A stretch of 34,417 bases of DNA from a virus: positions 1 through 34,417 of the IMG/VR virus record IMGVR_UViG_3300045999_003053. One strand, 5' to 3'. The translations under genes were made by a program, and so were the position numbers. Below, piece after piece: positions 6,124 to 34,417 of the stretch (positions are counted from its first letter, which is position 1; every line of letters begins with the position of its first letter). The notes beneath the pieces were generated by a model that saw only the letters and a list, made by a program, of their open reading frames with translations, was not told the origin of the DNA and made no database searches.

Positions 6124-6168
6124 AGTGACATGACTACGGGGCCTACGGGCCTCGTGGTGATCTCACTT
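6123..6168 (+). other. Stable RNA hairpin with UACG tetraloop between two structural genes
   Basis: ACGGGGCC (6136-6143) pairs with GGCCTCGT (6148-6155) around a TACG loop, giving C(UACG)G, one of the extra-stable UNCG tetraloops. AAGTGA (6123-6128) can also pair with TCACTT (6163-6168), closing an outer stem around a symmetrical 7/7 internal loop. No T-run follows, so this is not a standard intrinsic terminator. The weak GAAAG ribosome binding site for the gene at 6177 begins just after the structure. It could mark the 3' end of the abundant capsid message or protect it from nucleases, or set expression of the next gene. Confidence 0.6.
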
Positions 6169-6176
6169 GAAAGCAC

Positions 6177-12775: not shown

Positions 12776-12798
12776 TCTAGCGTAGGAATACGCATACT

Positions 12799-12850
12799 GG
12801 GGGCTGGTGCTGGCGATCTGTGTCCCGTCAGTTATCAGCCCCCTATTTTT
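12799..12850 (+). terminator. Intrinsic terminator/attenuator abutting the next ribosome site
   Basis: GGGGGCTGGT (12799-12808) pairs with ATCAGCCCCC (12834-12843) over 10 bp with one G-T wobble. TATTTTT (12844-12850) follows. The loop is 25 bases, longer than usual. The T-run is followed directly by AAGGG (12851-12855), the ribosome site of the gene at 12862. Partial termination here would give more major tail message than distal tail message, and readthrough RNA carries a hairpin next to the ribosome site. Confidence 0.8.
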
Positions 12851-12861
12851 AAGGGCACACA

Positions 12862-22841: not shown

Positions 22842-23277
22842 CTGGATGCAGATTGCGCAGAAGGAAAAAGGGCAGGCCGAAATAGCAGGGCCAAAGCATA
22901 ACAAGCGCATCGTTGAGTATCATCAGCGCACGACGTTGAAGGCGAAGGACGATGAGACGCCGTGGTGTTCTTCTTTTGTCAACTGGTGCGTAGGCAATGC
23001 CGGGTATAGCGTCACAGGATCAGCGGCAGCGCGGTCATGGGCTAAATATGGGCAGTCATGCAAGCCTCATTCGGGGTGCATTGTAGTAATGACACGTACC
23101 GGAGGCGGTCACGTTGGCTTTTACGTGCGCGAAACGGCGAAATACGTCTATGTGCTAGGCGGTAATCAGTCAAACAAGGTAAGCATAGCAGGATATGACA
23201 AGGGGCGCATTATTGCGTACCGTCTGCCTAGCGAGCTGAACGTGCCTGATGCGATGCTATACGACACCAAAGCGTAA
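22747..23277 (+). CDS. CHAP-type endolysin (TIGR02594-like)
   Basis: A 176-aa protein with the NlpC/P60-CHAP pattern: WMQIAQKEKGQAEIAGPKHN at residues 33-52, PWCSSFVNWCV with the nucleophile C74, GGGHVGFYV with the general base H122, and VLGGNQSNKVS near 140. This is the family of small phage and bacterial cell wall amidases/peptidases. I chose ATG 22747 because AGGAAGG (22733-22739) lies 7 bases upstream; TTG 22744 and ATG 22750 are neighbours. ATG 22846, just after the upstream stop, would give only the catalytic core. The first 30 residues include hydrophobic LLLGLKTWYG, possibly membrane-touching. There is no separate cell wall binding domain. Confidence 0.85.
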   Translation: MMRNLLLGLKTWYGNTLKQLNTPKAEQPTEYSWMQIAQKEKGQAEIAGPKHNKRIVEYHQRTTLKAKDDETPWCSSFVNWCVGNAGYSVTGSAAARSWAKYGQSCKPHSGCIVVMTRTGGGHVGFYVRETAKYVYVLGGNQSNKVSIAGYDKGRIIAYRLPSELNVPDAMLYDTKA

Positions 23278-23307
23278 AGAAAAGCCCGATATTTTTACCT
23301 ATCCGAG

Positions 23308-23344
23308 AAAAAGTTAAATTTTTTTTGACTTTTTTTCTTTTTTC
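23308..23344 (+). terminator. AT-rich terminator-like hairpin ending the late operon
   Basis: AAAAAGTTAAA (23308-23318) pairs with TTTGACTTTTT (23324-23334) around a five-T loop: 11 bp with one wobble pair. TTCTTTTTTC follows. The stem is weak in GC but long, and it stands in the longest non-coding stretch of the window, right after the endolysin. I take it as the end of the late transcript. The TTGAC within its right arm overlaps the putative promoter region. Confidence 0.55.
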
Positions 23345-23346
23345 TA

Positions 23347-23376
23347 TTGTGTAGACAAAATGTTTACGTATATTTG
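23347..23376 (+). promoter_or_regulatory. Promoter candidate for the early region
   Basis: TTG (TTGTGT, 23347-23352) is followed after 19 bases (16 from the hexamer) by TATATTTG (23369-23376). TATATT matches five of six bases of the sigma-70 -10 box. TTG-N19-TATATTTG also fits the TTG/TAnnTTTG pattern described for Bacteroidota. A second possible -35 box, TTGACT, lies at 23325-23330 without a good -10 partner at 17 bases. The first gene starts at 23414. Confidence 0.5.
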
Positions 23377-23413
23377 TGACGTAATCAAGTTCACACTTAA
23401 CAAGGGCACGGCA

Positions 23414-23617
23414 ATGACAAACGCAATCGAAACAACAAAGCTCAACAACCGCTACGGTACAACGGTTCTTGCAAAGACAGGCCGCTTCGGTCTTAACGCT
23501 TGCACATATGTAAACTATAAGCAAGCAACAAACGCTGTTGAGCGTCTAAAGGCAGCGGGCGTAGATGCCAAAATCTACAACTCTGGTTCTGTAAAGTTCA
23601 TAGAAATTTGCAAATAA
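23414..23617 (+). CDS. Small hypothetical protein, first early gene
   Basis: 67 aa from ATG 23414, chosen because AAGGG (23402-23406) lies 7 bases upstream. An ATG at 23360 would place the start within the promoter candidate. The protein has an N-terminal MTNAIETTKLNNRYGTTVLA and a compact alpha/beta part (NYKQATNAVERLKAAGVDAK). No known domain. As first gene after the promoter it is a candidate for an early host-takeover factor; that is inference from position. Confidence 0.6.
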   Translation: MTNAIETTKLNNRYGTTVLAKTGRFGLNACTYVNYKQATNAVERLKAAGVDAKIYNSGSVKFIEICK

Positions 23618-23676
23618 CTAACCACGGGGCGCAGCATCCTACACTGCAATCATTCACTTTTTACAAGGGTAGTATC

Positions 23677-23856
23677 ATGAACAAGCAAACAATCACTATC
23701 AGCATTGAGCAACAGCACTCTATGCAGCGCGGGATGCACAACGTCTATAAAGCGACGTATACGGCACGCAGCGGACGCAAAATATCAGCTATTGGATTGT
23801 CAGAGGTCAGCGCAATTCGTAATCTCAATCGTAAATCACCAATTGCACAAGGGTAA
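23677..23856 (+). CDS. Small basic hypothetical protein
   Basis: 59 aa from ATG 23677 with AAGGG 7 bases upstream (23665-23669). The upstream extension of the frame to 23608 has no start signal. The protein is basic (KATYTARSGRKISAIGLSEV, NLNRKSPIAQG), with a possible short beta hairpin. Function unknown. The AAGGG and 7-base spacing are the same as for both neighbouring small genes. Confidence 0.55.
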   Translation: MNKQTITISIEQQHSMQRGMHNVYKATYTARSGRKISAIGLSEVSAIRNLNRKSPIAQG

Positions 23857-23860
23857 CATC

Positions 23861-24082
23861 ATGAACATCGGCATAGAATTTACGACAACACGCAGCGCAG
23901 ACGGCAAGACCTACTGGCGCGTAGCTCCTTACTTGAGCGCGTCGTATCGGCAGAAGCTGTATATGGTTGGCGTTGGGCTTATCGCTCTGCTTGCTATCAC
24001 GCTGTCAGCATTGGCAGTAGCAGCAACACCTGATCCGATTATCAAGCCAGAACAAACAGTAACATTATGGGGTGCGAGATGA
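23861..24082 (+). CDS. Single-pass membrane protein
   Basis: 73 aa from ATG 23861, with AAGGG (23849-23853) 7 bases upstream. The frame is open farther upstream, but that part overlaps the previous gene. Residues 34-56 (LYMVGVGLIALLAITLSALA) form one clear membrane helix, preceded by a basic, polar N-terminus and followed by a short Pro-rich tail. Function unknown; early membrane proteins of phages often modify the host envelope or exclude other phages. Confidence 0.6.
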   Translation: MNIGIEFTTTRSADGKTYWRVAPYLSASYRQKLYMVGVGLIALLAITLSALAVAATPDPIIKPEQTVTLWGAR

Positions 24083-24318
24083 GCATTGAAAACATTAACT
24101 GGGATAAAACAGGCGGGCCAGCATTCCCAGCTACATTTGATGATTGTTCAAATGATGTATACATTCATGGGATGTCATTACGCGACTGGTTCGCAGGGCA
24201 ATTTTTAGCTGGGTGTGCGAGTTCGCCATACACACATGCATCTATTGCAAATGCTTGCTACGCTATGGCGGATGCTATGCTTGCAGAACGCGCCAAAGCC
24301 AAAGGAGAACAGCCATGA
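24079..24318 (+). CDS. Small phage protein with GM-LRDWFA motif
   Basis: 79 aa from ATG 24079 (ATGA overlap with the previous stop). TGGPAFPATFDD at the start, HGMSLRDWFAGQFLAGCAS in the middle and a closing helix ACYAMADAMLAERAKA form a pattern seen in many small uncharacterised proteins of phages (GGPAFP...GMTLRDWFAG...YA.ADAML). The function of the family is unknown. Confidence 0.65.
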   Translation: MSIENINWDKTGGPAFPATFDDCSNDVYIHGMSLRDWFAGQFLAGCASSPYTHASIANACYAMADAMLAERAKAKGEQP

Positions 24319-24551
24319 GCATGACCAAGCGCAAACTATTCTTGATTGAAGAAGACAGTAAACGTACCAAAAACAAATACGAATGGTGGGAAGATGAAGC
24401 ACATTACGCAGCACAAGATGATCCGTTTAGATTTGGAGTCACACAAAACCTTATTACAGGACGCAAAGAAGGACGGACGGAGCACGCAGAAGCAGCTCCA
24501 ACATTGGTGCAAGACGTACATACGAACATTTATACAGGGGAAGAAAAATGA
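24315..24551 (+). CDS. Small charged hypothetical protein
   Basis: 78 aa from ATG 24315, with a strong AAAGGAG 7 bases upstream and a four-base overlap with the previous gene. Highly charged, with EDSKRTKNKYEWWEDEAHYA near residues 13-32. No domain recognised. It precedes the Gp157-like gene with an ATGA overlap. Confidence 0.55.
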   Translation: MSMTKRKLFLIEEDSKRTKNKYEWWEDEAHYAAQDDPFRFGVTQNLITGRKEGRTEHAEAAPTLVQDVHTNIYTGEEK

Positions 24552-25072
24552 TTTTCCGAGAGACCAAGCAGACGTTCACGAGTAGCAGCGGCGCGGCATA
24601 CAAGCTCGCTGATCTCATGAATCAAATGATGCACACAGACGACCCGGAAGTTGTGGCAATGTTTGAAGATGCGATAGAAGAAGCGGGCGAGAACTTCCGT
24701 GAGTATATTGTGCAGGCAATGGACATTGCGGCTAATCTCAAGATGTCAGCGGAGGCAATCAAGCTAGAGCAGGAACGCTTGCAATTATTGCTAACTGAAC
24801 GTAATACAAGGGCAGAACGGCTTGAGAACGCTGTGAAGCGTTATATGGAGATGGTAGACGTAAAAGAAGTGGTTACCGATCTATACACGCTAAAGCTACG
24901 CAAGAACCCACCAAAGGTAGAGATACTTGAAGAGGTGGTAGTGCCTAGCGAGTACAAGGTAGAAAAGGTATCATTTACGATAGACAAGAAAGCAATTGCC
25001 GATGCGCTCAAGAACGGCGTACCGGTGGACGGGGCAAGGTTAATTAACACAACACGACTGGAGGTAAAATGA
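24548..25072 (+). CDS. Siphovirus Gp157-like protein
   Basis: 174 aa. A helical N-terminal half (about residues 20-95) contains KLADLMNQMM and EAIKLEQERLQLLLTERNTRAERLENAVKRYM. A beta half follows with YTLKLRKNPPKVEIL and PSEYKV, and it ends with the helix AIADALKNGVPVDGARL. This is the arrangement of the Gp157 family, described in Streptococcus thermophilus phages and linked there to resistance or recombination functions. The gene sits just before a putative annealing protein, as Gp157 often does. Confidence 0.85.
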   Translation: MIFRETKQTFTSSSGAAYKLADLMNQMMHTDDPEVVAMFEDAIEEAGENFREYIVQAMDIAANLKMSAEAIKLEQERLQLLLTERNTRAERLENAVKRYMEMVDVKEVVTDLYTLKLRKNPPKVEILEEVVVPSEYKVEKVSFTIDKKAIADALKNGVPVDGARLINTTRLEVK

Positions 25073-25467
25073 ACAACGCGATAATTGATGCATATCAAGC
25101 GCTCGAAAAATTGCAAAATGACCTGCTTATGCAATTAGATCAGGTCAAACACGCAATGGCAGCATTGAGACCGCCTACAAAGAGCAAGGCGAGCAAGGTT
25201 GCAATCGTAACAGACAACGCAGAGGCAAAGAAGATTATCGAGCAAGGCGGAGGATTGGCCTTGTGGGTTGATCTAAAGCGCAGGGCACGAGGTCGCGCGC
25301 TAATGAACTGCCAGACGGAAAAGTCACACTACTCGATTAGACTCTTTGACTATGGCAACTTGACACGCAAAAAGTATCCTAGTTCGCGCGAAGTTGCACG
25401 ATACAGCAACAAAGAAGAAGCGTACCAGATGCGCGATCAACTAACTGCTATAATGGAGGGACGATGA
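25069..25467 (+). CDS. Hypothetical protein of the recombination cluster
   Basis: 132 aa, GGAGG ribosome site and ATGA overlap. An N-terminal amphipathic helix (DAYQALEKLQNDLLMQLDQV) is followed by a basic region (DLKRRARGRALMNCQ) and a small alpha/beta tail. Not recognised. Located between Gp157-like and annealing-protein-like genes, so DNA metabolism is possible. Confidence 0.55.
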   Translation: MNNAIIDAYQALEKLQNDLLMQLDQVKHAMAALRPPTKSKASKVAIVTDNAEAKKIIEQGGGLALWVDLKRRARGRALMNCQTEKSHYSIRLFDYGNLTRKKYPSSREVARYSNKEEAYQMRDQLTAIMEGR

Positions 25468-26210
25468 CACAAGCAATTACAGCGACTAACACGGCGGTCG
25501 CAGCATCTATTAACGAGTCGCAGGCGGCAGCGTTGTTTGAGACGCTGGTAGTAAACGGCGATCTGTCTGCAATGTCGCAGGAACAGCGCATCCAATACTA
25601 TAAGCTGGTATGCGAGCGTGTGGGATTAGACCCATACCAGAAGCCGTTTGATCTAATCAAGCTATCTGGCAAGCTCACGTTGTACGCAAACAAGACCTGC
25701 ACAGCGCAGCTTACATCTATTCGCGGTCTTCGTGTGGCTATTGTAGCGCGTGAGGTCATCGGCGATCAATATGTAGTAACCGCGCGATGCGAGACACCGA
25801 CGGGCAGCTACTCCGAGGACATAGGGGCTGTTACGATTGGCGGTATGCGCGGCGATGCGGCAAGCAATGCCATGAAGAAGGCAGCAACGCAGGCAAAGCG
25901 ACGCGCTATTTTGAGCGCATGCGGTCTCGGTATGCTTGACGAAGAGGAAGTTGTGCAAGTGCAGGGCGCTGAACGTATCGAATTGCCGCCTATAAAGCCC
26001 GCTACGACGTCAGAGCAGGACGAAGCTATAACGGAGTGGTTATCGGCTATTGACGCCGCTACGGGGCCAGAAGAGCTAACGGCAATTGTGATGCAAATCA
26101 AGAGCGTAGATGAAGGTATCAAAGCACCTATCCGCGAATACGTGGCACGTCGTGCAAAAGAGCTGGATCTCGTATGGAGTAAGGGCGCATATACGGAGGT
26201 GCAGCGATGA
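25464..26210 (+). CDS. Putative single-strand annealing/recombination protein
   Basis: The 248-aa protein contains YYKLVCERVGLDPYQKPFDL at about residues 50-70, LTLYANKTCTAQL (about 78-90) and GDAASNAMKKAATQAKRRAI followed by LSACGLGMLDEEE (about 130-165). The last block, with its Lys/Arg-rich A-MKKAATQAKRR, is typical of phage annealing proteins of the RecT/Rad52-like group. These pair complementary strands during recombination-dependent replication. The C-terminal 75 residues are acidic and probably separate (DEAITEWLSAIDAATGPEEL). No partner exonuclease was seen. GGAGG ribosome site; overlap of 4 bases on each side. Confidence 0.6.
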   Translation: MTQAITATNTAVAASINESQAAALFETLVVNGDLSAMSQEQRIQYYKLVCERVGLDPYQKPFDLIKLSGKLTLYANKTCTAQLTSIRGLRVAIVAREVIGDQYVVTARCETPTGSYSEDIGAVTIGGMRGDAASNAMKKAATQAKRRAILSACGLGMLDEEEVVQVQGAERIELPPIKPATTSEQDEAITEWLSAIDAATGPEELTAIVMQIKSVDEGIKAPIREYVARRAKELDLVWSKGAYTEVQR

Positions 26211-26449
26211 GAAGATACTCAATGAGCGCAGTAGCGATATCTACTGTTGATTCAGAAGGCAAATATGTAGAGTATGAAGAATTACAAAAACTACTTATTG
26301 CATCTGATCAAGCACTTGAAGCATTGTATTACGTTGTGCAATGTGAAGAAATAATAGCAACGCAATCTGAAGCAATGCAAAAAGAATTGAGAGCAACATT
26401 TGCAAACCTGAATAGTGCGATGGTCGATATAAAAGGAGTCAAGCAATGA
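26207..26449 (+). CDS. AT-rich small hypothetical protein
   Basis: 80 aa with GGAGGTG ribosome site. Helical, acidic (EYEELQKLLIASDQALEALY, EMQKELRATFANLN). Codon use is visibly more AT-rich than in the neighbours (about 32% GC in 26281-26340), which suggests recent acquisition. No domain recognised. Confidence 0.6.
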   Translation: MRRYSMSAVAISTVDSEGKYVEYEELQKLLIASDQALEALYYVVQCEEIIATQSEAMQKELRATFANLNSAMVDIKGVKQ

Positions 26450-26664
26450 GAAAGCTAGGAACATGGAAGCAGCCCAGCGGATTCTATTCCGTTGTCGATC
26501 TTGATGCTGATTTCTGCGTAGCGGACTGCCTACCGACAATGCAGCTTGCAAACCAGATTATGCGATTGCTAAATGATGCTTACGAAGACTGTGAAGAAAA
26601 CAACCCAGCGCTTGTTATGCTGGAAAAACTAACCTATAAGCCAACGGAAGGGGCACAAGGATGA
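26446..26664 (+). CDS. Small hypothetical protein
   Basis: 72 aa with AAAGGAG ribosome site and ATGA overlaps on both sides. It starts with KQPSGFYSVVDLDADFCVAD and continues as an acidic helix (LLNDAYEDCEENNPALVMLE). No domain recognised. Confidence 0.6.
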   Translation: MRKLGTWKQPSGFYSVVDLDADFCVADCLPTMQLANQIMRLLNDAYEDCEENNPALVMLEKLTYKPTEGAQG

Positions 26665-27485
26665 GTAATATCAGTTCGGTTTTAATGACCATAACGCCAG
26701 AAGTTGCGAAAAGTTTTTATATACAATCAGCAGGCAATAGACCAATATCTCCACAAAGGGTAGATATGTTTGCAAAGTACATTCTGGAGAATAAGTGGGT
26801 AGTTGATGGAAGCCCGCTCAAATTTGATGAAAAAGGTAATTTTATTGATGGGCATCATAGAGTTTTAGGCATAGTAAAATCGGATCGTGCAGTACAAGCT
26901 ATGGTTACCTACGGTCTACCATCTCTAGCAATGCAGACGATTGATACAGGACGCGCACGAACTGTTGGAGATCAGCTTGCGATTGCCAATATCAGAGATG
27001 CTAATCTTAAAGCTGCGGTAGCTGGAGTTATTCTATCTTTAGAATCCAAAAATCCAGCTTATGATCAGCGCGTAGTTGACAAGATTGCACAGTTTGAAAT
27101 GGCTGCCAATCACGAGTTTTTTAATACAAAGATTACAAATACAAGATATAAGAAGTACAGAGATTTATTAGGTAACGCAAAGGCAATTTTTGCGGCTCAT
27201 TATCTAATTGATAAGCATTTCCCTACACAAGCCGATAGATTCTTTGACGTGTTACAAACTGGTATGCCAATTCTGACGCAAGATGAAACTATAATCAACA
27301 TTCGGGAAGCATTGATGCGTCTCAAGAATAACAGACACTTGGTTAGAAACTTTGCTATGGCTGCTGGGCTAACACGCGCATGGGATGCATGGCGGCAGGG
27401 TAAGATTATCAAGCGCGTTAACTTCTTGCACACAAAGGATCGGCCAGTTGATTGGGTGGATGTTAAGTTATTGCGCAAGTCATGA
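26661..27485 (+). CDS. ParB/Srx-like nuclease-fold domain protein
   Basis: The 274-aa protein has an N-terminal domain with ISPQRVDMFAKYILENKW (about residues 28-45), SPLKFDEKGNFIDGHHRVLG (52-71) and a following TIDTGRARTVGDQL (about 94). The GHHR part corresponds to the G-HR box of the ParB N-terminal fold. The remainder is helical. This type of protein is common in phages, often annotated as ParB-like, and its role there is not settled (DNA modification, nuclease or regulator). The AT-rich composition (about 35% GC in 26701-26760) sets it apart from its neighbours and suggests horizontal acquisition. Confidence 0.65.
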   Translation: MSNISSVLMTITPEVAKSFYIQSAGNRPISPQRVDMFAKYILENKWVVDGSPLKFDEKGNFIDGHHRVLGIVKSDRAVQAMVTYGLPSLAMQTIDTGRARTVGDQLAIANIRDANLKAAVAGVILSLESKNPAYDQRVVDKIAQFEMAANHEFFNTKITNTRYKKYRDLLGNAKAIFAAHYLIDKHFPTQADRFFDVLQTGMPILTQDETIINIREALMRLKNNRHLVRNFAMAAGLTRAWDAWRQGKIIKRVNFLHTKDRPVDWVDVKLLRKS

Positions 27486-27577
27486 AGCATAGATTGCAAA
27501 ATGCAGTCTTATTACAACTAACTGAGCAGGGAATGCCCCTGCGATGTCGGTTGTGCAAGTACCACGACGTGGTATAG
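27482..27577 (+). CDS. 31-aa ORF, possible leader peptide
   Basis: ATG 27482 overlaps the preceding stop (ATGA). The ORF encodes 31 residues and ends at TAG 27575-27577, with CRLCKYH near the end. Its second half is covered by two hairpins of the structured region 27526-27616. Coding status is uncertain; translation through it would disturb the RNA structures, as a leader peptide would. Confidence 0.35.
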   Translation: MKHRLQNAVLLQLTEQGMPLRCRLCKYHDVV

Positions 27578-27616
27578 GTTTGGAACAGGGGCGGAGGTCG
27601 GGAAGCCAAAGCCCCT
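27526..27616 (+). ncRNA. Structured RNA region with exclusive stems (attenuator-like)
   Basis: Three perfect stems occur in 91 bases: GCAGGG/CCCTGC (27526-27531 with 27537-27542), TACCAC/GTGGTA (27560-27565 with 27569-27574, loop GAC) and AGGGGC/GCCCCT (27587-27592 with 27611-27616), the last followed by ACTTTT. CAGGGGC (27586-27592) can instead pair with GCCCCTG (27535-27541), so the first and third stems compete with this long-range one. The GGAG of the gene at 27640 lies just behind. No known riboswitch class recognised. Confidence 0.4.
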
Positions 27617-27639
27617 ACTTTTAACACAAGGAGCTAACA

Positions 27640-27843
27640 ATGCACGACAATAACCACGGCACATGCAGAACATGCAGCCGATTAAAAGAATACGAGCGCG
27701 ATCAGTTGAGCTACGAAGGATTCTATACCATCTCGGTACCATACGCATTCTGCGACGTGTTAGAAATAGAGCTGGATGATCCAAACGGCTTTTACTGCGC
27801 TAACTACAAGCCGCACAAAGGGGGCAAGCATGAGCAAGCATAG
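27640..27843 (+). CDS. Small Cys-containing protein, possible zinc binder
   Basis: 67 aa with AAGGAG ribosome site (9 bases before ATG). CRTCSRL near residue 9 forms a CxxC pair. FCDV and FYCANYK supply further Cys residues near 40 and 54, and His occurs on both ends. A small metal-binding fold is possible. Function unknown. Confidence 0.6.
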   Translation: MHDNNHGTCRTCSRLKEYERDQLSYEGFYTISVPYAFCDVLEIELDDPNGFYCANYKPHKGGKHEQA

Positions 27844-27970
27844 CGACATCGACCTAGCACGCTTCGCGGCGGATGCTATGGTACTGATCCTGTTCTTTGT
27901 GGCTCTCACTTGTATCATAGCTTTTGCATGTATGCTATACTTTTTCCTTTGGCTGGTAGGTGTCGTATGA
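27830..27970 (+). CDS. 46-aa membrane peptide
   Basis: From ATG 27830 with AAGGGGG 5-11 bases upstream, overlapping the previous gene by 14 bases. Residues 17-44 are one long hydrophobic segment (MVLILFFVALTCIIAFACML and on). The N-terminus is polar. Function unknown. Confidence 0.6.
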   Translation: MSKHSDIDLARFAADAMVLILFFVALTCIIAFACMLYFFLWLVGVV

Positions 27971-28335
27971 AGCAGCGTATAGAGCGAGTGAGCATAAGCG
28001 GCAAGGTAGTAGCTATCAGAGCATCGGTACAGGCGCAACGCGGCGGCAGATACCGTAAGCAGTTTATAGTAAACGATGCTATCAACGAGCAGGATGCAAT
28101 AGCGGCAGCAAAGGATTATATTGCGCTTATAATGGAGCGGCTATCAAACATGCCGGCAGAACGTGAGATAGTCAAGATAGTAGAAGAGATAGTAGACCAA
28201 GCAAAGCTCAAAGATGCACACAACACAAAAGTGCGCGGGGCAGTAGGCAAAGACGTATCAGCGGTGCTTGAACGTTACCCGCTTTCTACGACCGTATTCG
28301 GCTATGAAAACAGCTTGGGCGAATGGGTAAAATAA
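27967..28335 (+). CDS. Hypothetical protein
   Basis: 122 aa from ATG 27967 (ATGA overlap). The first 60 residues read as a small beta-beta-alpha unit (RVSISGKVVAIRASVQAQRG, then QDAIAAAKDYIALIMERL). The centre is a charged helix (REIVKIVEEIVDQAKLK). No recognisable family. A hairpin that would terminate transcription coming from the opposite strand lies right behind it. Confidence 0.55.
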   Translation: MKQRIERVSISGKVVAIRASVQAQRGGRYRKQFIVNDAINEQDAIAAAKDYIALIMERLSNMPAEREIVKIVEEIVDQAKLKDAHNTKVRGAVGKDVSAVLERYPLSTTVFGYENSLGEWVK

Positions 28336-28338
28336 AAA

Positions 28339-28366
28339 GAGCCGCCAGATTTTCGTCCGACGGCTC
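28339..28366 (-). terminator. Intrinsic terminator-like hairpin on the minus strand
   Basis: GAGCCG (28339-28344) pairs with CGGCTC (28361-28366). Read on the minus strand the stem is followed by TTTTTATTTT, a canonical terminator tail; on the plus strand no T-run follows. As all genes are on the plus strand, it may block antisense transcripts, or the hairpin may act on the plus-strand RNA between two genes without terminating. Confidence 0.45.
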
Positions 28367-28426
28367 ACGGAGGGAGCAAGGAGTCACGCACTCACTTACA
28401 AGGGGTGAACGAATATAGGGCATAAC

Positions 28427-28627
28427 ATGTACCAAGAACAAACAGACCCGGATTTCGTTATCCACTTGATAAGCAAGTTCGATGACGATCAGCTTGTAGA
28501 ATGGCATGAACGTGCCGGTATCTACGAATACGAAGCAAACATGAGCAGAGATGCAGCGGAATACAAAGCCGCATTGGATGTATTAACAACTATCGCGCAA
28601 AGAATGCGCAAGAAGGGCACACGATGA
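28427..28627 (+). CDS. Small acidic hypothetical protein
   Basis: 66 aa, helical and acidic (DFVIHLISKFDDDQLVEWHE, YEANMSRDAAEYKAALDVL), with a basic end (RMRKKGTR). Ribosome site AGGG about 9 bases upstream. It precedes the SSB-like gene with a four-base overlap. Unknown function. Confidence 0.6.
   Translation: MYQEQTDPDFVIHLISKFDDDQLVEWHERAGIYEYEANMSRDAAEYKAALDVLTTIAQRMRKKGTR
28458..28466 (+). promoter_or_regulatory. DnaA-box-like site 1
   Basis: TTATCCACT matches eight of nine bases of the DnaA box TTATCCACA. It lies within a coding region. One of four TTATCCAC sites I found, all between 28.4 and 32.4 kb. Confidence 0.4.
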
Positions 28628-28971
28628 GTAATGACGCAATCAACATCACGGGCGAACTGATCCACATTGGACAGACGCAGCAGGTAAAAGACACATTCCA
28701 GAAACGTTCTTTTGTAGTAAAGACGCAATCAGAGTATCCGCAGGAACTGGAATGCCAGTTCACGCAAGACAAGTGCAAGGAGCTAGACCGTTTTAAGGTT
28801 GGCGATACCGTTACTGCTCGCGTAAACTTGCGTGGACGCGGCTATCAGAAGCGCGAAGGCGGCATGGGCTGGTTTACGTCGCTCGATTGCTGGAAGATCG
28901 ACAAGCTAGGCGAAGGCGCACCGGCAAGCAAGGCAGCGGTTATCGCAGAACCTACTGATCTTCCCTTTTGA
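28624..28971 (+). CDS. DUF3127-like, SSB-like protein
   Basis: The 115-aa protein runs INITGELIHIGQTQQVKDTF, then KRSFVVKT, a PQELECQFTQDKCKELDRF block, VGDTVTARVNLRGRGY, and TSLDCWKIDKL. This is the single OB-fold pattern of DUF3127, and it ends in the acidic tip TDLPF, as single-strand DNA-binding proteins do to recruit partners. I infer a single-strand binding protein of the replication module. DUF3127 is best known from Bacteroidota, a weak hint to the host. Ribosome site AAGGG with the spacer CACACG, almost the same as at 12862. Confidence 0.8.
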   Translation: MSNDAINITGELIHIGQTQQVKDTFQKRSFVVKTQSEYPQELECQFTQDKCKELDRFKVGDTVTARVNLRGRGYQKREGGMGWFTSLDCWKIDKLGEGAPASKAAVIAEPTDLPF

Positions 28972-29273
28972 GTATGAAGAGGGCTGCAAAGGTGGACATA
29001 AATCAGAAAGAGATAGTCACATATCTACGCAAGATTGGGGCGTCAGTCGCTGTTATGAGCGCAGTCGGTCAGGGCTTCCCCGATCTTGTGGTAGGATGGC
29101 GCGGGCGCAATTACATGATCGAAGTGAAACAGGCCAAAGGCAAGCTCACGGAAGATCAGTACGAGTTTGCAGCGCATTGGAGGGGCCAGTACGGCGTGGC
29201 ACGATCAATAGACGATGCGTGCAACATAATCGGAGCGGATTTACCACGAATTAACGTATTAAAGGAGGACTAA
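28968..29273 (+). CDS. VRR-NUC-like nuclease
   Basis: 101 aa from TTG 28968 (TTGA overlap); ATG 28974 is an alternative. The core reads VDINQKEIVTYLRKIGASV, GQGFPDLVVGWRGRNYMIEV and VKQAKGKLTEDQYEFAAHW. PDL-x-V...EVK supplies the D and E-x-K of the PD-(D/E)xK active site, and the Q of EDQ is conserved in VRR-NUC enzymes. These cut branched or flap DNA such as Holliday junctions. It stands between the SSB-like gene and a membrane peptide in the DNA metabolism block. Confidence 0.85.
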   Translation: MSMKRAAKVDINQKEIVTYLRKIGASVAVMSAVGQGFPDLVVGWRGRNYMIEVKQAKGKLTEDQYEFAAHWRGQYGVARSIDDACNIIGADLPRINVLKED

Positions 29274-29371
29274 TGGACGCAATCGACAGGGGGCTAGCGA
29301 TCAGCTTGGTGCTGCTAGTGATGTATATCGCACTTGAGATATACGTACATAATCGGAGGGTCGATGACTGA
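29273..29371 (+). CDS. 32-aa membrane peptide with perfect ribosome site
   Basis: ATG 29273 overlaps the nuclease stop (TAATG). It has the strongest ribosome site in the window, AAAGGAGG (29261-29268), with 4 bases of spacing. The product has a charged start (MDAIDRG), a hydrophobic stretch (LAISLVLLVMYIALEIYV) and a basic end (HNRRVDD). The TGA is inside the next gene, which starts 8 bases earlier. Genuine expression is likely; function unknown. Confidence 0.65.
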   Translation: MDAIDRGLAISLVLLVMYIALEIYVHNRRVDD

Positions 29372-29951
29372 TTACCCGAACTGGTTTGACTCGGTAGCAC
29401 GAGCAAACTTTACAGAGTTTTTGCTGCCAGAAGCGGGCCGCGATAACTACCAAGCATTGCAGATCGGCGCATTTGTAGGTCACGCAAGCGATTGGCTGCT
29501 ACGGTATGTGCTAACAGGTGATAAAGTGATGCTATATGACGTAGACACGTGGCAGGGCAGCGACGAAGCAGAGCACGAGCTGTTTGATTGGCAAGACGTT
29601 TTCGACACGTACCTATCGCGCATCGGGCTGCGGGCATACATGAAGTGCCGATACTTCCGTATGACGTCAGATAGGTTCTTCGATAGCTACACGAACATGC
29701 TAGATCGCAATCAGTTCGACTTTATCTACATCGATGGCGACCATACCGCAGATCAGGTATGGAAAGACGGCGCAAAGGGCTGGAAGTATCTCAAGCAGGG
29801 CGGCATACTTGCCTTTGATGACTACGAATGGGATGGGGGCAAGGGGACGGCACATAATCCAAAGCAGGGGATTGACACGTTTTTAGAAGTACACGACGGC
29901 GAATACGAGCTGCTAGCAAAGAACTGGCAAGTATGGCTGCGGAAGTTGTGA
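29364..29951 (+). CDS. SAM-dependent class I methyltransferase
   Basis: 195 aa from ATG 29364 with GGAGGG upstream. An NYQALQIGAFVGHASDWLL segment at about residues 28-46 is the SAM-binding loop with an unusual QIGAFVG in place of E-G...G. KVMLYDVDTW follows (D of motif II), then FDFIYIDGDHTADQVWKD at about 118-135 and LKQGGILAFDDYEW. This order is typical of Methyltransf_24-like enzymes, many of which act on sugars or small molecules. Together with the glycosyltransferase it could belong to glycan modification, but the two genes are 17 kb apart. Confidence 0.8.
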   Translation: MTDYPNWFDSVARANFTEFLLPEAGRDNYQALQIGAFVGHASDWLLRYVLTGDKVMLYDVDTWQGSDEAEHELFDWQDVFDTYLSRIGLRAYMKCRYFRMTSDRFFDSYTNMLDRNQFDFIYIDGDHTADQVWKDGAKGWKYLKQGGILAFDDYEWDGGKGTAHNPKQGIDTFLEVHDGEYELLAKNWQVWLRKL

Positions 29952-29953
29952 TA

Positions 29954-29962
29954 CGTGGATAA
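29954..29962 (-). promoter_or_regulatory. DnaA-box-like site 2 (non-coding)
   Basis: TTATCCACG on the minus strand, in the 72-base gap just upstream of the replication initiator gene. Eight of nine bases match the DnaA box. The only one of the four sites that is not in a coding region. Confidence 0.5.
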
Positions 29963-29987
29963 CGCGCGCAGAGAAATATCATCCAAT

Positions 29988-30005
29988 TATGGCGTAAGTG
30001 CCATA
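29988..30005. promoter_or_regulatory. Inverted repeat upstream of the initiator gene
   Basis: TATGGC (29988-29993) and GCCATA (30000-30005) form a perfect 6-bp inverted repeat around GTAAGT, 18 bases before the ATG at 30024. Together with the DnaA-like site it fills most of the 72-base gap. It may be an operator or RNA hairpin that controls the initiator. Confidence 0.4.
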
Positions 30006-30023
30006 GATTGCTAATTCCTAAAC

Positions 30024-30950
30024 ATGAACAACAACATAGACAATACGACCCAGATGCTAGAAGATTCCTTCACCGGAGACGGTGCGGGCGGTTCATTCAT
30101 GACCGAGGAAAATCAGCTAGCATCTGGGTTTCCTATTTATGGTATGGAAAACTCGTGGATTAAGCTCCATCGTAAGATATTAGAGAACTGGGTATTTAAG
30201 CAAAGGCCGGAATACTTAAAGATTTGGGTATACATATTGATCGCTGCAAACTGGAAACCAAGCAAGGCGTTGGTCAATGGTCAGTTTGTCACAATCGAGC
30301 GCGGCGAGATGCTCACAAGCTACCGATCACTAGCAGAAGGGGCCGGAACTACGGTGCAAATCGTGAAAACCTTTCTCAAGTACGCAGAAAACGATGGGAT
30401 GATTAGCGTCAAAAGCAACACAGCAGCAACACGCCTTAAGATATTGAATTACGAAGACTTACAAGGACGTGAAAACAACGATCAACACACGCCTAACACA
30501 CGGTTAACACACGATCAACACACGCCTAACACTATCATAAGAAGTAAAGAATATAAAGAAGGTAAGAAAGAAAGAATAGAAGAAGAAGATAAAGATAGTG
30601 TGAGTATGCGCTCGCGCGCATTTACGCGCCCAAGTTGTCAAGAAATCCTTGACTACTTCATTGAGCTAGGCAGTACGCAGGAAGAAGCAAACAAATTCTT
30701 CGACCATTACACGGCTAACGGCTGGAAAGTGGGCAAGAACGCGATGAAAGACTGGAAAGCAACAGCGCGGAATTGGAACAGGAACAAAGGCAAGTTTGGC
30801 AAAGAAGCTGATCAGCAGATTGCGATCCGCACAAAACCCGCAGGATTGCCGAAGCAGGTGGTCGAATTGTACCAAAAAGAGCTACCATCAGAAATTGAAA
30901 TAGAGCGCATGAAAGCTCTATACCTGTCCAAAGTATCAAACAACGAATAA
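30024..30950 (+). CDS. Replication initiator (winged-helix/DnaD-like)
   Basis: The 308-aa protein has an N-terminal winged-helix region: NSWIKLHRKILENWVFKQRP (about residues 43-62), YLKIWVYILIAANWKP, then VTIERGEMLTSYRSLAEGAG and VKTFLKYAENDGMI. A repeat-bearing, charged linker at 150-195 carries DQHTPNT twice. The C-terminal domain has EILDYFIELG and FDHYTANGWKVGKNAMKDWK, then ARNWNRNKGKFG, resembling the last domain of phage replication proteins of the DnaD/O type. It probably opens the origin and loads the host helicase. The origin itself seems to lie inside this gene. Start ATG 30024 has no clear ribosome site; ATG 30099 (MTEENQ) is possible. Confidence 0.8.
   Translation: MNNNIDNTTQMLEDSFTGDGAGGSFMTEENQLASGFPIYGMENSWIKLHRKILENWVFKQRPEYLKIWVYILIAANWKPSKALVNGQFVTIERGEMLTSYRSLAEGAGTTVQIVKTFLKYAENDGMISVKSNTAATRLKILNYEDLQGRENNDQHTPNTRLTHDQHTPNTIIRSKEYKEGKKERIEEEDKDSVSMRSRAFTRPSCQEILDYFIELGSTQEEANKFFDHYTANGWKVGKNAMKDWKATARNWNRNKGKFGKEADQQIAIRTKPAGLPKQVVELYQKELPSEIEIERMKALYLSKVSNNE
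30478..30532. repeat. Iterons of the putative replication origin
   Basis: A 22-base sequence (core GATCAACACACGCCTAACAC) occurs at 30478-30499 and 30511-30532, a period of 33 bases. A related 12-mer, GGTTAACACACG, lies in between at 30502-30513. In the protein the repeat gives DQHTPNT twice in the linker. Direct repeats within the initiator gene, next to an A-rich tract, are the arrangement of the lambda O origin. Confidence 0.75.
30537..30608. other. C-free, A-rich tract beside the iterons (unwinding element candidate)
   Basis: The 72 bases from 30537 to 30608 have no C on the + strand; in 30541-30600 A makes up 60% and G 27%. It directly follows the iterons. Such strand-asymmetric, easily melted tracts accompany the lambda O iterons. 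It encodes a Lys/Glu-rich linker (KEGKKERIEEEDKD), so the bias is partly due to the protein. Confidence 0.65.
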
Positions 30951-30965
30951 AAACGCGTCTACGGG

Positions 30966-31005
30966 GCTGGAAACGGCCAGCAAACAACTATTAAGCATTA
31001 CTTAA
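30966..31005. promoter_or_regulatory. Two short hairpins in the gap before the DnaA-like gene
   Basis: GCTGG/CCAGC (30966-30970 with 30977-30981) and TTAAG/CTTAA (30991-30995 with 31001-31005) are two perfect 5-bp inverted repeats. They lie in the 83-base non-coding gap 30951-31033. No T-run follows either. GGAGGG for the next gene is at 31022-31027. May be a control region; weak evidence. Confidence 0.3.
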
Positions 31006-31033
31006 CAACTCAAAAACAACACGGAGGGTAAAT

Positions 31034-31603
31034 ATGAGGCGGTATAGAAAGCTAAATGAGGTGCTCGCAATGTCCGACACCATCCTAAAATACTTTGACG
31101 TGCACCGGTCACGGTTCGTAACATGGGCTCTTAAACAGCCCGACCTATTCCCAGAAGTAGGCAAGCGCGCGATGCAGGACTACTTGTGCATAGCACTCAA
31201 TAGGCACATGATCCCTTCACACATAACAGACACCAGAAGAGCACTTAAAATTATCAAACAAAAACATACCATGAGACCAAACACGCAAAACCCAGCTATC
31301 CTAAACCTTATCGACCAATTTTGCAAGCTGTACAACTGCACATGGGAGCAGCTTGTAGCGCAATCCCGCTTTCATTGGGTCGTAGAATGCCGATACCTGC
31401 TCATGTACTTTCTGTTTACGAAGTACCGACTATCTAACTCATTGATAGCGCGGCTATTTAACAAGCACCATTCGTCGGTTATCCACGCTTTGCGGAACAT
31501 GCGTAACCAAATCGAAACAGATGCTAACTTCCGTGAATACGTGGAACGTATGGAAACGCTGCTAGATATTAACTTTACCGTGCAAGTGGAAGAGATACAA
31601 TGA
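31034..31603 (+). CDS. Stand-alone DnaA domain IV-like DNA-binding protein
   Basis: The 189-aa protein has in its second half the pattern of the DnaA C-terminal DNA-binding domain: LIDQFCKLYNCTWEQLVAQS (about residues 93-112), YLLMYFLFTKYRLSNSLIAR, and LFNKHHSSVIHALRNMRNQI. The last segment matches the DnaA signature (F..RDHTTVIHA..K), with KHHSSVIHA in its place. The AAA+ ATPase domain is absent. The N-terminal 85 residues are basic, helical and not recognised. It should bind DnaA boxes, several of which lie around it, and could compete with or recruit host DnaA. GGAGGG ribosome site. Confidence 0.85.
   Translation: MRRYRKLNEVLAMSDTILKYFDVHRSRFVTWALKQPDLFPEVGKRAMQDYLCIALNRHMIPSHITDTRRALKIIKQKHTMRPNTQNPAILNLIDQFCKLYNCTWEQLVAQSRFHWVVECRYLLMYFLFTKYRLSNSLIARLFNKHHSSVIHALRNMRNQIETDANFREYVERMETLLDINFTVQVEEIQ
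31479..31487 (+). promoter_or_regulatory. DnaA-box-like site 3
   Basis: TTATCCACG inside the DnaA-like gene. It encodes part of the VIHAL signature, so codon constraint alone may explain it. Confidence 0.3.
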
Positions 31604-32910
31604 GCTTCGAGCTACATCTTGGCAACTGTTTAGACATACTTGCAACCATGCCAGACAACAGCGTGGATGCTATTGTCACAGATCCGCCCTATGGTCTGGC
31701 GTTTATGGGTAAGAAGTGGGACTATGACGTACCAAGCGAAGAGATCTGGCGTGAATGTCTCCGCGTGCTCAAACCGGGTGGTCATCTGTTAGCCTTTGCA
31801 GGAACACGGACGCAGCACCGTATGGCCGTGCGTATCGAGGATGCAGGGTTTGAGATACGGGACATGATCGCATGGGTCTATGGCTCGGGGTTTCCAAAGT
31901 CGCACGACATAAGCAAGGCGATTGATAAGGCCGCAGGGGTGGAACGCACTGAGGTGATTGGCACCAAGTTGGGCCTCCCTGGGATGGCCAAGGATGGCAG
32001 TAACCAGCGCAGCGGATTTGATGCCGCTTTTGGTGGTGATGCTTGCGGCCTTCTTTCGACTGACATCACCGCCCCCGCAACTTTAGCCGCCAAACAATGG
32101 CAAGGCTGGGGTACTGCGCTCAAACCTGCGCTGGAGCCTATTACCGTGGCACGCAAGCCGTTCACGGGAACGGTGGCGGCGAATGTACTGCAATGGGGAA
32201 CGGGTGGCGTGAATGTGGATGGGTGCAGGGTGGAAGGAAATGTGACAACTTGGCCTGCAATACGCACCAACAATAGAAACAATGCAAACGCATACGGCAC
32301 TTATGCGTCGCAAGAAACAACGGGCACACCGTCAACCCTCGGCCGCTTTCCCGCGAACCTTATCCACGACGGTAGTGATGAGGTGGTGGGGATGTTTCCG
32401 GAGACGAAGACGGGGAAGCCGACGTTGGGCAGTCAACCAACGACCGGCGAGGTGTTCGGCGCGTATGCGCAGCGCAGCACGGTAGGAGGTGTCGATTCCG
32501 GCTCCGCAGCCCGCTTCTTCTACTGCGCAAAGGCATCCAAGCGAGACAGGGACGAGGGATGCGAGGGGATGGAGGCGCAAAACCTTCGATATGGCGATGG
32601 TAGGGGGCGAAGTCATGAAATGTATAATACAACAAGCGATAATCGTCCAACGCCCACCAACCCTGCTCGCACCAACCACCACCCCACCGTCAAACCCACC
32701 GACCTCATGCGCTACCTGTGCAGGCTGGTAACACCACCGAACGGCACGGTTCTCGATCCGTTCATGGGCAGCGGCTCCACAGGCAAAGCAGCCATCTTGG
32801 AAGGGTTCCAGTTTATCGGAATTGACATGACACCCGAATATGTAGACATCGCACGTGCACGGATTGAGCACGCAGTAAAGTCAAAGCCGAATAAGCTGGA
32901 TTTGGAGTAA
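31600..32910 (+). CDS. DNA methyltransferase, beta class (N6-adenine or N4-cytosine)
   Basis: The 436-aa enzyme has the catalytic motif DPPY at residues 28-31 (DAIVTDPPYGLAFMGKKW) and the SAM-binding motif near the C-terminus (DPFMGSGSTGKAAILEGFQF, then IGIDMTPEYVDIARARI). Catalytic-before-SAM order is the beta class. Residues of about 110-370 hold the target recognition region. It methylates the phage DNA, presumably against restriction; no restriction gene accompanies it. From about 31,930 to 32,770 the DNA is about 60-65% GC in lines counted, against 42-47% just upstream, so the middle of the gene is probably of foreign origin. ATGA overlap with the DnaA-like gene. Confidence 0.9.
   Translation: MSFELHLGNCLDILATMPDNSVDAIVTDPPYGLAFMGKKWDYDVPSEEIWRECLRVLKPGGHLLAFAGTRTQHRMAVRIEDAGFEIRDMIAWVYGSGFPKSHDISKAIDKAAGVERTEVIGTKLGLPGMAKDGSNQRSGFDAAFGGDACGLLSTDITAPATLAAKQWQGWGTALKPALEPITVARKPFTGTVAANVLQWGTGGVNVDGCRVEGNVTTWPAIRTNNRNNANAYGTYASQETTGTPSTLGRFPANLIHDGSDEVVGMFPETKTGKPTLGSQPTTGEVFGAYAQRSTVGGVDSGSAARFFYCAKASKRDRDEGCEGMEAQNLRYGDGRGRSHEMYNTTSDNRPTPTNPARTNHHPTVKPTDLMRYLCRLVTPPNGTVLDPFMGSGSTGKAAILEGFQFIGIDMTPEYVDIARARIEHAVKSKPNKLDLE
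32360..32368 (+). promoter_or_regulatory. DnaA-box-like site 4
   Basis: TTATCCACG within the methyltransferase gene; eight of nine bases match the DnaA box. Confidence 0.35.
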
Positions 32911-32913
32911 ATA

Positions 32914-33387
32914 ATGCGGTTTTTTTCAACTAGATCAGAGCACCGCAAAATGGGACGTAAAAAGTTAGAACTTGATGAAGAGAAAATATGGGAAGCTGCA
33001 ACTAAAGGGGCGACCTATGAAGCTATTGCGAGAGCACTCGGCAAGGATGCAGACGGCAAACCGGTAGTCTCTAGCGATACCATACGCAGGCGCTACGCAG
33101 AGCTTATATCGCAGGCAAAGGCTAACGGCGATATTGAGCTTTACGCTGCCCTATGGGAAGAAGGCGTAATAGGCGTACCAGATCAGAACGGCAACAGGAA
33201 ACGCAATGCAGCGGTCTTGCTGCGCCTTGCAGAGCATCGACTCGGTATGTCCCAGAAGATGCACCAAACCAATGAGCGGCAAGAGTTTAACATCGTTATT
33301 GGCCCTAAACCAAATACCATACCACTAGAAGCAGATGATACAAGTAACAACACCATTGCCAGCGCAGACGGCCTTCTGGAACAGTAG
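32914..33387 (+). CDS. terS: Terminase small subunit (complete copy)
   Basis: The 157-aa protein recognises the packaging site and regulates the large subunit. KIWEAATKGATYEAIARALG (about residues 24-43) is a helix-turn-helix; VSSDTIRRRYAELISQAK follows as the second helix pair. The middle (LYAALWEEGV, NAAVLLRLAEHRLGM) is the oligomerising helical part. ATG 32914 has GGAG about 9 bases upstream; ATG 32950 (MGRKK) is a shorter choice. The 3' end overlaps terL. Identification rests on the HTH and on its place directly before terL. Confidence 0.8.
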   Translation: MRFFSTRSEHRKMGRKKLELDEEKIWEAATKGATYEAIARALGKDADGKPVVSSDTIRRRYAELISQAKANGDIELYAALWEEGVIGVPDQNGNRKRNAAVLLRLAEHRLGMSQKMHQTNERQEFNIVIGPKPNTIPLEADDTSNNTIASADGLLEQ

Positions 33388-34417
33388 AGCACGGCATCGG
33401 CTTTTCGTGGGTGGTATCGGTAGCGGCAAGACGCTGGCAGGATGCCTTGAGATACTACGGCAGCCGTCAGGGACATTTGGCACGGTCATAGCTCCTACCT
33501 ATCCCATGCTGCGGGATGCTACGCTGCTCACGTTCTTCGAGAAGTTTGGGCAAGCAGTCGAGAGCCATAACAAGAGCGAAGGCGTCACCGTGCTGCGTAA
33601 TGGTACTACCGTGTTCTGGAGATCAGCAGACAAGCCAGATTCACTGCGAGGCCCTAACCTGAACTGGTTCTACCTAGATGAAGCGGACTATATGGACGGC
33701 GCGACGTGGGACGTTATGCTTGGTCGTATTCGCCGCGATCCTACCGCTTGCTGGCTTACCACATCCCCTAATGGAGATACCAACTGGGTATACGAGCGCT
33801 TCTACCGTAAGTGGACAGAAGGCAATCCAGAATACTTTGTAGCGCAGGCAAAGACAAGGGACAATGTCCACCTACCGCCTGAATACGTCAGGACGCTCGA
33901 AGAAACGTATACGAGCGAGTTTGCGCGGCAGGAACTGGAAGGGGAATTCATCGGGCCAATGGGGCGCATCATGCGGAAAGAGTGGCTGCAATACGCTCTG
34001 CTTCCAGAAGATGACATAACGTACGTGATCGGCGTGGACTTGGCTGTTGGCATGAAGTCCAATGCAGATGATCGCGCTATCGTGGTGGTGGGCAAGCGTG
34101 GCACGACCTATTACGTCGCTGATGTGGTGTTTGGCAAATGGTCATTTAACGAAACCAAGGACAAGATCAAGCAGACTGCCTACAACTGGAATGCCGTCAG
34201 GGTGTGCGTTGAGAACGTGGCTTACCAAGAAGTCATGGTTCAACAGCTACGAGCCGAAACAATGCTTAACATACAAGGTGTCAATCCACGGGGCCGCAAT
34301 AAGCTCACACGCTTTCTGCCCATCGCAGGCAAGTATGAGCACGGCTATATCAAACATGTGAATAGCGTACCTTTGGAATTTACCGAGCAACTGCTTATGT
34401 TCGACGGCAAAGATGGG
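33137..34417. repeat. Right copy of diverged terminal repeat
   Basis: Counterpart of 1-1281 at a fixed offset of 33136: identical for the first 160 and last 99 bases, about 90 substitutions in between (about 93% identity overall by hand count), no gap. Confidence 0.95.
33335..34417 (+). CDS. terL: Terminase large subunit, second haplotype, cut by window end
   Basis: The frame opens at ATG 33335 and runs to the window end (361 codons). The product matches the terL at 199-1359 except at two residues: Asp for Tyr at 135 and Tyr for Phe at 153. The roughly 80 nucleotide changes within the gene are otherwise silent. Walker A, Walker B and the nuclease Asp are all kept. It is another strain's version of the same gene exposed by the circular assembly, rather than a second terminase gene of the phage. 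Confidence 0.9.
   Translation, partial: MIQVTTPLPAQTAFWNSRARHRLFVGGIGSGKTLAGCLEILRQPSGTFGTVIAPTYPMLRDATLLTFFEKFGQAVESHNKSEGVTVLRNGTTVFWRSADKPDSLRGPNLNWFYLDEADYMDGATWDVMLGRIRRDPTACWLTTSPNGDTNWVYERFYRKWTEGNPEYFVAQAKTRDNVHLPPEYVRTLEETYTSEFARQELEGEFIGPMGRIMRKEWLQYALLPEDDITYVIGVDLAVGMKSNADDRAIVVVGKRGTTYYVADVVFGKWSFNETKDKIKQTAYNWNAVRVCVENVAYQEVMVQQLRAETMLNIQGVNPRGRNKLTRFLPIAGKYEHGYIKHVNSVPLEFTEQLLMFDGKDG

Follow-up and report, generated by a model that had tools for sequence, protein, structure and literature searches.

The longest internal gap among the genes picked in this phage (27486-27639, 154 bases; only the unassigned start of the record is longer) contains an element that, judging from a comparison of related contigs, is a conserved structured non-coding RNA of one uncultured phage group. 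The window analysed here is the complete virus record IMGVR_UViG_3300045999_003053 (34,417 bases), which represents an uncultured phage. The gap separates genes for proteins of 274 and 67 amino acids within a run of plus-strand genes that also includes a Rad52-like gene (Pfam E 0.0011; its score of 19.4 bits misses the cutoff of 20.3), a DUF3127 gene, and a gene resembling endonucleases and Holliday junction resolvases. Distant homologues of the 274-aa protein occur in 86 phage records, and the 67-aa protein matched neither a Pfam nor a PHROG family. The RNA, which is sense to the operon, consists of four consecutive hairpins, P0, P1/P2, P3, and P4 (Table 1). We tentatively favor the reading that it is a cis-acting intercistronic element at which the level or the half-life of the transcript steps, with P4 as a weak terminator or stability barrier.

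Table 1. Features of the RNA locus (positions are those of the window)
Feature	Position	Strand	Remarks
274-aa gene, upstream	26661..27485	+	phrog_5931, function unknown
31-codon ORF	27482..27577	+	ATG 27482, TAG 27575-27577; lineage-specific, 7 of 20 records
Whole conserved RNA element	27486..27615	+	130 nt in the window, 129-138 nt in relatives; cmsearch model R1, RNAalifold consensus
P0 hairpin	27491..27509	+	AGATTGC/GCAGTCT (27491-27497 with 27503-27509); AGGCCGC/GCGGTCT in relatives
P1, encloses P2	27514..27554	+	ACAACT.AC / GT.GGTTGT (27514-27519 and 27521-27522 with 27546-27547 and 27549-27554)
P2 hairpin	27526..27542	+	GCAGGG/CCCTGC (27526-27531 with 27537-27542); (A/G)CGGGG/CCCCGT in the second lineage
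P3 hairpin	27559..27575	+	GTACCAC/GTGGTAT (27559-27565 with 27569-27575); CCAATCGTAA/TTACTGATTGG instead in L043 and L049
P4 hairpin	27588..27615	+	GGGGC/GCCCC (27588-27592 with 27611-27615), upper stem, GGGA loop 27600-27603
Weak U-rich tail TACTTTTAA	27616..27624	+	3' of P4; tail score 1.9
Shine-Dalgarno AAGGAG of the 67-aa gene	27628..27633	+	ahead of ATG 27640; AAGGA mostly unpaired, sixth base (G) paired
67-aa gene, downstream	27640..27843	+	CxxC motifs

Repeated scans of the IMG/VR viral contigs returned the same 19 contigs (16 to 19 of them per scan), all of which encode both the 67-aa protein and a protein of 122 amino acids. The RNA is present in every one of them, complete in 18 and cut by the contig end in L046; together with the window this gives 20 records and 19 complete copies, 11 of them distinct. 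Outside these contigs nothing convincing was recovered, neither a phage record by blastn nor a contig in the scans of viral and genome contigs, and searches with the 122-aa protein and with the protein encoded upstream in most relatives (134-150 aa, see below) added no further phage. Several matches were set aside as due to chance: L044, L045, L047, L048, L050, and L051 (six of 22 in one pattern scan), L052 (one of 17 in another), the genome-contig matches L062 to L064 (three of three), and L065 to L067 (three of three), the last from a scan whose pattern has no match to the window itself and hence gives no evidence of absence. At E <= 1 model R1 recovered none of these except L067 (13.9 bits, E 0.22). 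None of the 4227 Rfam families matches the window at its gathering score, and none matches positions 27440-27680 even at E <= 10. The element was not described in the open-access papers that we searched; the searches were few, and this is weak evidence.

The stretch from 27482 to 27660 folds with a predicted energy of -57.5 kcal/mol, where its dinucleotide shuffles give -44.9 +/- 3.75 (z -3.37), and 27484-27622 reaches z -3.90; in both cases none of 200 shuffles was as stable, so a comparison proposed in the first-pass annotation of this sequence came out in favor of structure. Relative L043, whose stems have different sequences, gives z -5.10 (again 0 of 200). The 103-base core by itself is weaker (z -2.19; two of 200 shuffles as stable). 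As individual stems, the window's P2, P3, and P4 were matched in stability by 39, 125, and 249 of 3000 shuffles, respectively, and P3 of L049 by six of 3000; the rates for the window indicate that its single stems are unremarkable and that it is the element as a whole that is remarkable. A scan of the complete window (686 windows of 130 bases, step 50, 40 shuffles each), in which no window frames the element exactly, gave a best z of -2.67 for windows overlapping the element, and at least twelve other windows were lower. Fold energy alone leaves the element not unique within the record, and the case for it rests on comparison.

This comparison used an alignment (A3) of ten of the 11 distinct complete copies; L021 was omitted, and the truncated copy in L046 was unusable. 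From these ten sequences RNAalifold recovers P0, P1/P2, P3, and P4, and the same fold is predicted in both lineages. In P0 both partners differ in one pair and a single partner differs in two others, without loss of pairing; in P2 both partners differ in two pairs. The compensatory changes that the first-pass annotation had suggested looking for in relatives are therefore present in these two stems, although by our reading all covariation would reflect roughly two evolutionary events only, one parting the layout with the 274-aa gene from the rest and the other parting L043, L049, and L046 from the rest. P1 is invariant apart from one mismatch in L014, and the paired bases of P4 are invariant apart from a C.A at 27599/27604 in the window; since these stems hardly vary, covariation speaks neither for nor against them. 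Because its alignment by MAFFT is faulty, P3 was excluded from the counted structure. Assessed by separate folds, it is wholly replaced in L043 and L049 and still forms a hairpin; the P3 given by RNAalifold is broken at five of seven pairs in the two rows of the second lineage, and a fourth doubly changed pair located there was not counted.

Of 300 cells counted in the alignment, 99.3% hold a pair, a proportion that falls to 34-45% when the partners are slid against each other. The covariation score was reached in none of 500 shuffles, the count of three doubly changed pairs in 26, and the count of further pair types in 425; the covariation term contributes -0.53 of the -48.63 kcal/mol that RNAalifold assigns. 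Unpaired positions are also kept in both lineages, namely GAU, GCAA, GG-UUGGRACA, and the GGGA loop. In all ten sequences the plus strand folds more stably than the minus strand, and the cells without a Watson-Crick pair on the plus strand comprise 31 G.U against one A.C and one other mismatch. This indicates an RNA sense to the gene run, and the same figures dispose of an RNA made from the minus strand. A coding role for the element was also rejected, given that the reading frames differ among the records and that the P3 region is about 8 bases longer in the second lineage; L010 and L021 each carry a one-base deletion.

The genes that border the RNA are less constant. The 274-aa gene precedes it in eight of the 20 records, the window included, and in 11 others its place is taken by a gene of 134-150 codons ending in ...KAAKxGLNYN*, of which L021 retains just the end; the remaining record is cut off at this point. 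In the latter layout the last codons of the upstream gene pass through P0 into P1, so that its stop codon lies within P1, whereas in the 274-aa layout the stop codon is just 5' of the RNA. Among seven sequences of the 134-150-aa gene the final codons become nearly invariant on entering P0, synonymous sites included, and upstream of this region synonymous and amino-acid changes are dense. P0 is thus retained inside the upstream gene as well as after it. As a separate observation, the 134-150-aa proteins (L053, L054, L055, L058, L059, L060, and L020) are constant at their N and C termini and vary strongly in between, as if the middle had been exchanged by recombination; the one member tested had no Pfam match above the cutoff and no PHROG match.

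On the downstream side the 67-aa gene starts 24 bases 3' of P4 in 18 of the 20 records. In the other two an endonuclease-like gene is inserted between the RNA and the 67-aa gene: an HNH-like gene in L015 (PHROG E 7e-5; Pfam below the cutoff) and a gene with a MUG113 domain in L043 (Pfam E 8.6e-6; PHROG homing endonuclease E 0.011), a domain which we take to belong with the GIY-YIG endonucleases. HEARO RNAs are an RNA type associated with HNH genes, and the insert in L015 made this type a candidate; it was rejected, as no Rfam family matches and 18 of the 20 records have no insert ahead of the 67-aa gene.

Under the explanation that we tentatively prefer, the RNA would be a module in the intercistronic gap of a replication and recombination operon, carried presumably on the polycistronic mRNA, and would act in cis on this transcript independently of the position of ribosomes. 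P0 to P3 would fold the segment into a stable unit accessible to proteins, P4 and its weak U-rich tail would form a leaky terminator or a barrier to 3' exonucleases, and the transcript level or half-life would step from the exchangeable upstream gene to the downstream module encoding the 67-aa, 46-aa, and 122-aa proteins. We favor action in cis because of the weak tail of P4 and because of the gap at 12776-12861, whose layout (a GC hairpin, TATTTTTAAG, and a start codon) resembles the order P4-TACTTTTAAC-SD-ATG. The explanation also agrees with the retention of the RNA although the preceding gene differs and endonuclease-like genes have been inserted after it. Against the reading, P4 does not appear in the list from our terminator scan: the GC-rich hairpin is present, with a tail that is a poor one for intrinsic termination. 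Its score of 1.9 in the window (1.16-2.03 across five variants) compares with 4.78 for the minus-strand terminator at 28339.

Two further points weigh against this cis-acting barrier. If the element were no more than a barrier hairpin, there would be no need for invariant P1 and P4 sequences or for conserved unpaired bases; however, this phage also has two further well-conserved hairpins in gaps, which tempers any argument from conservation for a special function. Furthermore, the covariation amounts to about two events, and the element does not stand out in the z scan of the whole window.

The nearest published resemblance that we have seen is to an intercistronic untranslated sequence (IC-UTS) of gene 43 in Aeromonas phage 44RR and to a stable hairpin that precedes seg43 in phage 25 (PMC2988022). 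With the IC-UTS the element shares an untranslated intercistronic stretch and the occurrence of an endonuclease gene at the corresponding gene of a relative, and the seg43 hairpin, like the element, is situated ahead of a ribosome site and leaves it uncovered. However, these are other phages and other genes, and our element has four hairpins, with compensatory changes in P0 and P2, and no split gene that we recognise; the likeness is one of descriptions. The same source describes, for T-even phages, a weak intrinsic terminator inside mobE (PMC2988022), which has in common with P4 a hairpin and a short U tract between co-transcribed genes and is thought to limit read-through. The element differs in having three more conserved hairpins ahead and in lying outside coding sequence, and termination at P4 is a prediction. 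The manA and wcaG RNAs of cyanophages were likewise put forward by comparative genomics as conserved structured RNA candidates, in phages and metagenomes (PMC2864571), but no Rfam family matches our element up to E 10.

The main rival explanation is that the segment encodes a non-coding RNA that acts in trans or binds protein and to which the neighboring genes would not matter; it would be cut out of the operon transcript or have a promoter of its own. That the RNA stays one unit while the flanking genes differ would fit such an RNA, as would the conserved unpaired bases and the presence of a single clear copy in each of the nine records searched (an extra match in G002, with 9.7 bits and E 0.26, was taken as chance). 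Between the window and L020, moreover, the element is 92% identical and the three downstream genes only 65-80%. However, between the window and L039, where the stems are replaced, the element (77%) is no better conserved than the adjoining genes (73-91%), and in the scans made the RNA was never found away from the operon. The promoter scan gave no excess of sites (12 against 15.2 expected, the nearest on the plus strand at 27038-27065), and P4 has no strong terminator behind it. We consider a trans-acting RNA unlikely. A bolder version, which we regard as distinctly unlikely, is that the element represents a new class of phage RNA whose defined tertiary fold is built on the GGGA loop and the conserved joining strands. 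Such an RNA would act in trans after excision, or else bind a phage recombination protein or the host polymerase, and would be the hub of gene exchange at this locus.

One could also assume that conservation acts on the DNA, with the segment serving as an island of homology for gene exchange or as the target of homing endonucleases and being kept alike by recombination. The two kinds of upstream gene do join the element near P0, and two different endonuclease-like genes sit directly after P4. Recombination explains neither the compensated stem changes nor the fact that the non-Watson-Crick cells, read on the plus strand, are nearly all G.U, and we hold this explanation to be improbable. It is quite improbable that the element is a processive antiterminator similar to the put RNA of phage HK022, in which case the nascent RNA would bind RNA polymerase and cause read-through of the rest of the operon. 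The put RNA is about 70 nt long with two stem-loops, is located downstream of the early promoters, and acts on terminators without a phage protein (PMC9378689). Both are sense-strand RNAs with several hairpins in a phage operon, a long one in our case, but the element has 129-138 nt and four hairpins and occupies a mid-operon position, and no plus-strand candidate terminator that it could overcome appears past it in the scan list for 23000-34417.

Very improbable, finally, is an attenuator operating through alternative stems and a 31-codon leader peptide, at the level of translation or transcription. The first-pass annotation had offered this reading, alongside that of an uncharacterised structured RNA, on the basis of three perfect stems, a long-range alternative pairing, the short ORF, and the ribosome site. 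All of these lie where it had placed them, with the qualification that P4 contains an internal loop and an upper stem and is not fully perfect; P0 and P1 had been overlooked. The low fold energy, the shared fold, and the compensated stems support the structured RNA, whereas the attenuator is largely refuted by the comparison of relatives. The ORF with the same stop codon occurs in seven of the 20 records; in L010 the one-base deletion extends it to 55 codons, in 11 records the C-terminal end of an unrelated gene occupies its place, and one is cut off. We judge the ORF to be incidental, and the position of the upstream stop codon, before the RNA in one layout and within P1 in the other, also argues against a mechanism that depends on the position of ribosomes.

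The alternative pairing, for which GCCCCTG (27535-27541) is indeed able to pair with CAGGGGC (27586-27592), shrinks from 7 bp in the window to 5 bp in L015 (by eye) and 4 bp in L049, which stands for the lineage of L043 and L049. In the two sequences tested, the window and L049, forcing it costs 12.9 and 20.9 kcal/mol relative to the minimum free energy, and 6.0 and 13.9 kcal/mol in a nascent transcript ending just past the 5' strand of P4. A leader-peptide attenuator would be expected to conserve both its short ORF and its mutually exclusive stems, and neither is conserved here. Sequestration of the Shine-Dalgarno sequence finds no better support, because AAGGA is predicted to be unpaired with probabilities of 0.78-0.92 in the window and 0.68-0.94 in L039. 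In both sequences the final G is engaged in a pair (unpaired 0.09 and 0.04, respectively). In the window this base, together with the two that follow, is paired to the element's first three bases at about 0.6, which might be taken to favor attenuation, but its partner in L039 lies in the region of the start codon (0.91). The start codon itself is partially paired in the two sequences, with different predicted partners. The change of partners suggests that there is no conserved occlusion of the ribosome site.

An RNA that stays put amid differing upstream genes and incoming endonuclease-like genes looks like a self-contained regulatory part. Together with the other conserved gap hairpins, the element suggests that this phage group partly controls its long operons by intergenic RNA structures, which to our knowledge have been little described for small uncultured phages. 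One of these hairpins, at 28339-28366 on the minus strand (gap 28336-28426), resembles an intrinsic terminator with a TTTTTATTTT tail and is located within the run of plus-strand genes. Its minus strand is the more stable one in all eight sequences folded (of nine aligned), and some changes pair solely on that strand, as G.U; it may mark where a conserved antisense RNA ends. The conserved gap at 12776-12861 contains two hairpins, the second followed by TATTTTTAAG right before a start codon, and L096 is altered on both sides of the stem; this looks like a partial terminator among structural genes. A long conserved gap hairpin without a U tract lies at 6124-6176 (scan z -5.45), where the changes adjoining the loop appear compensatory by eye. 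A similarly low scan value (z -5.39) was obtained for 30001-30130, which reaches from the last part of a gap into the beginning of a 308-aa gene. The record also begins and ends (1-1281 and 33137-34417) with direct copies of one sequence that share 93% identity across 1281 bases; they represent either two strains joined during assembly or a genuine duplication of the terminase region.
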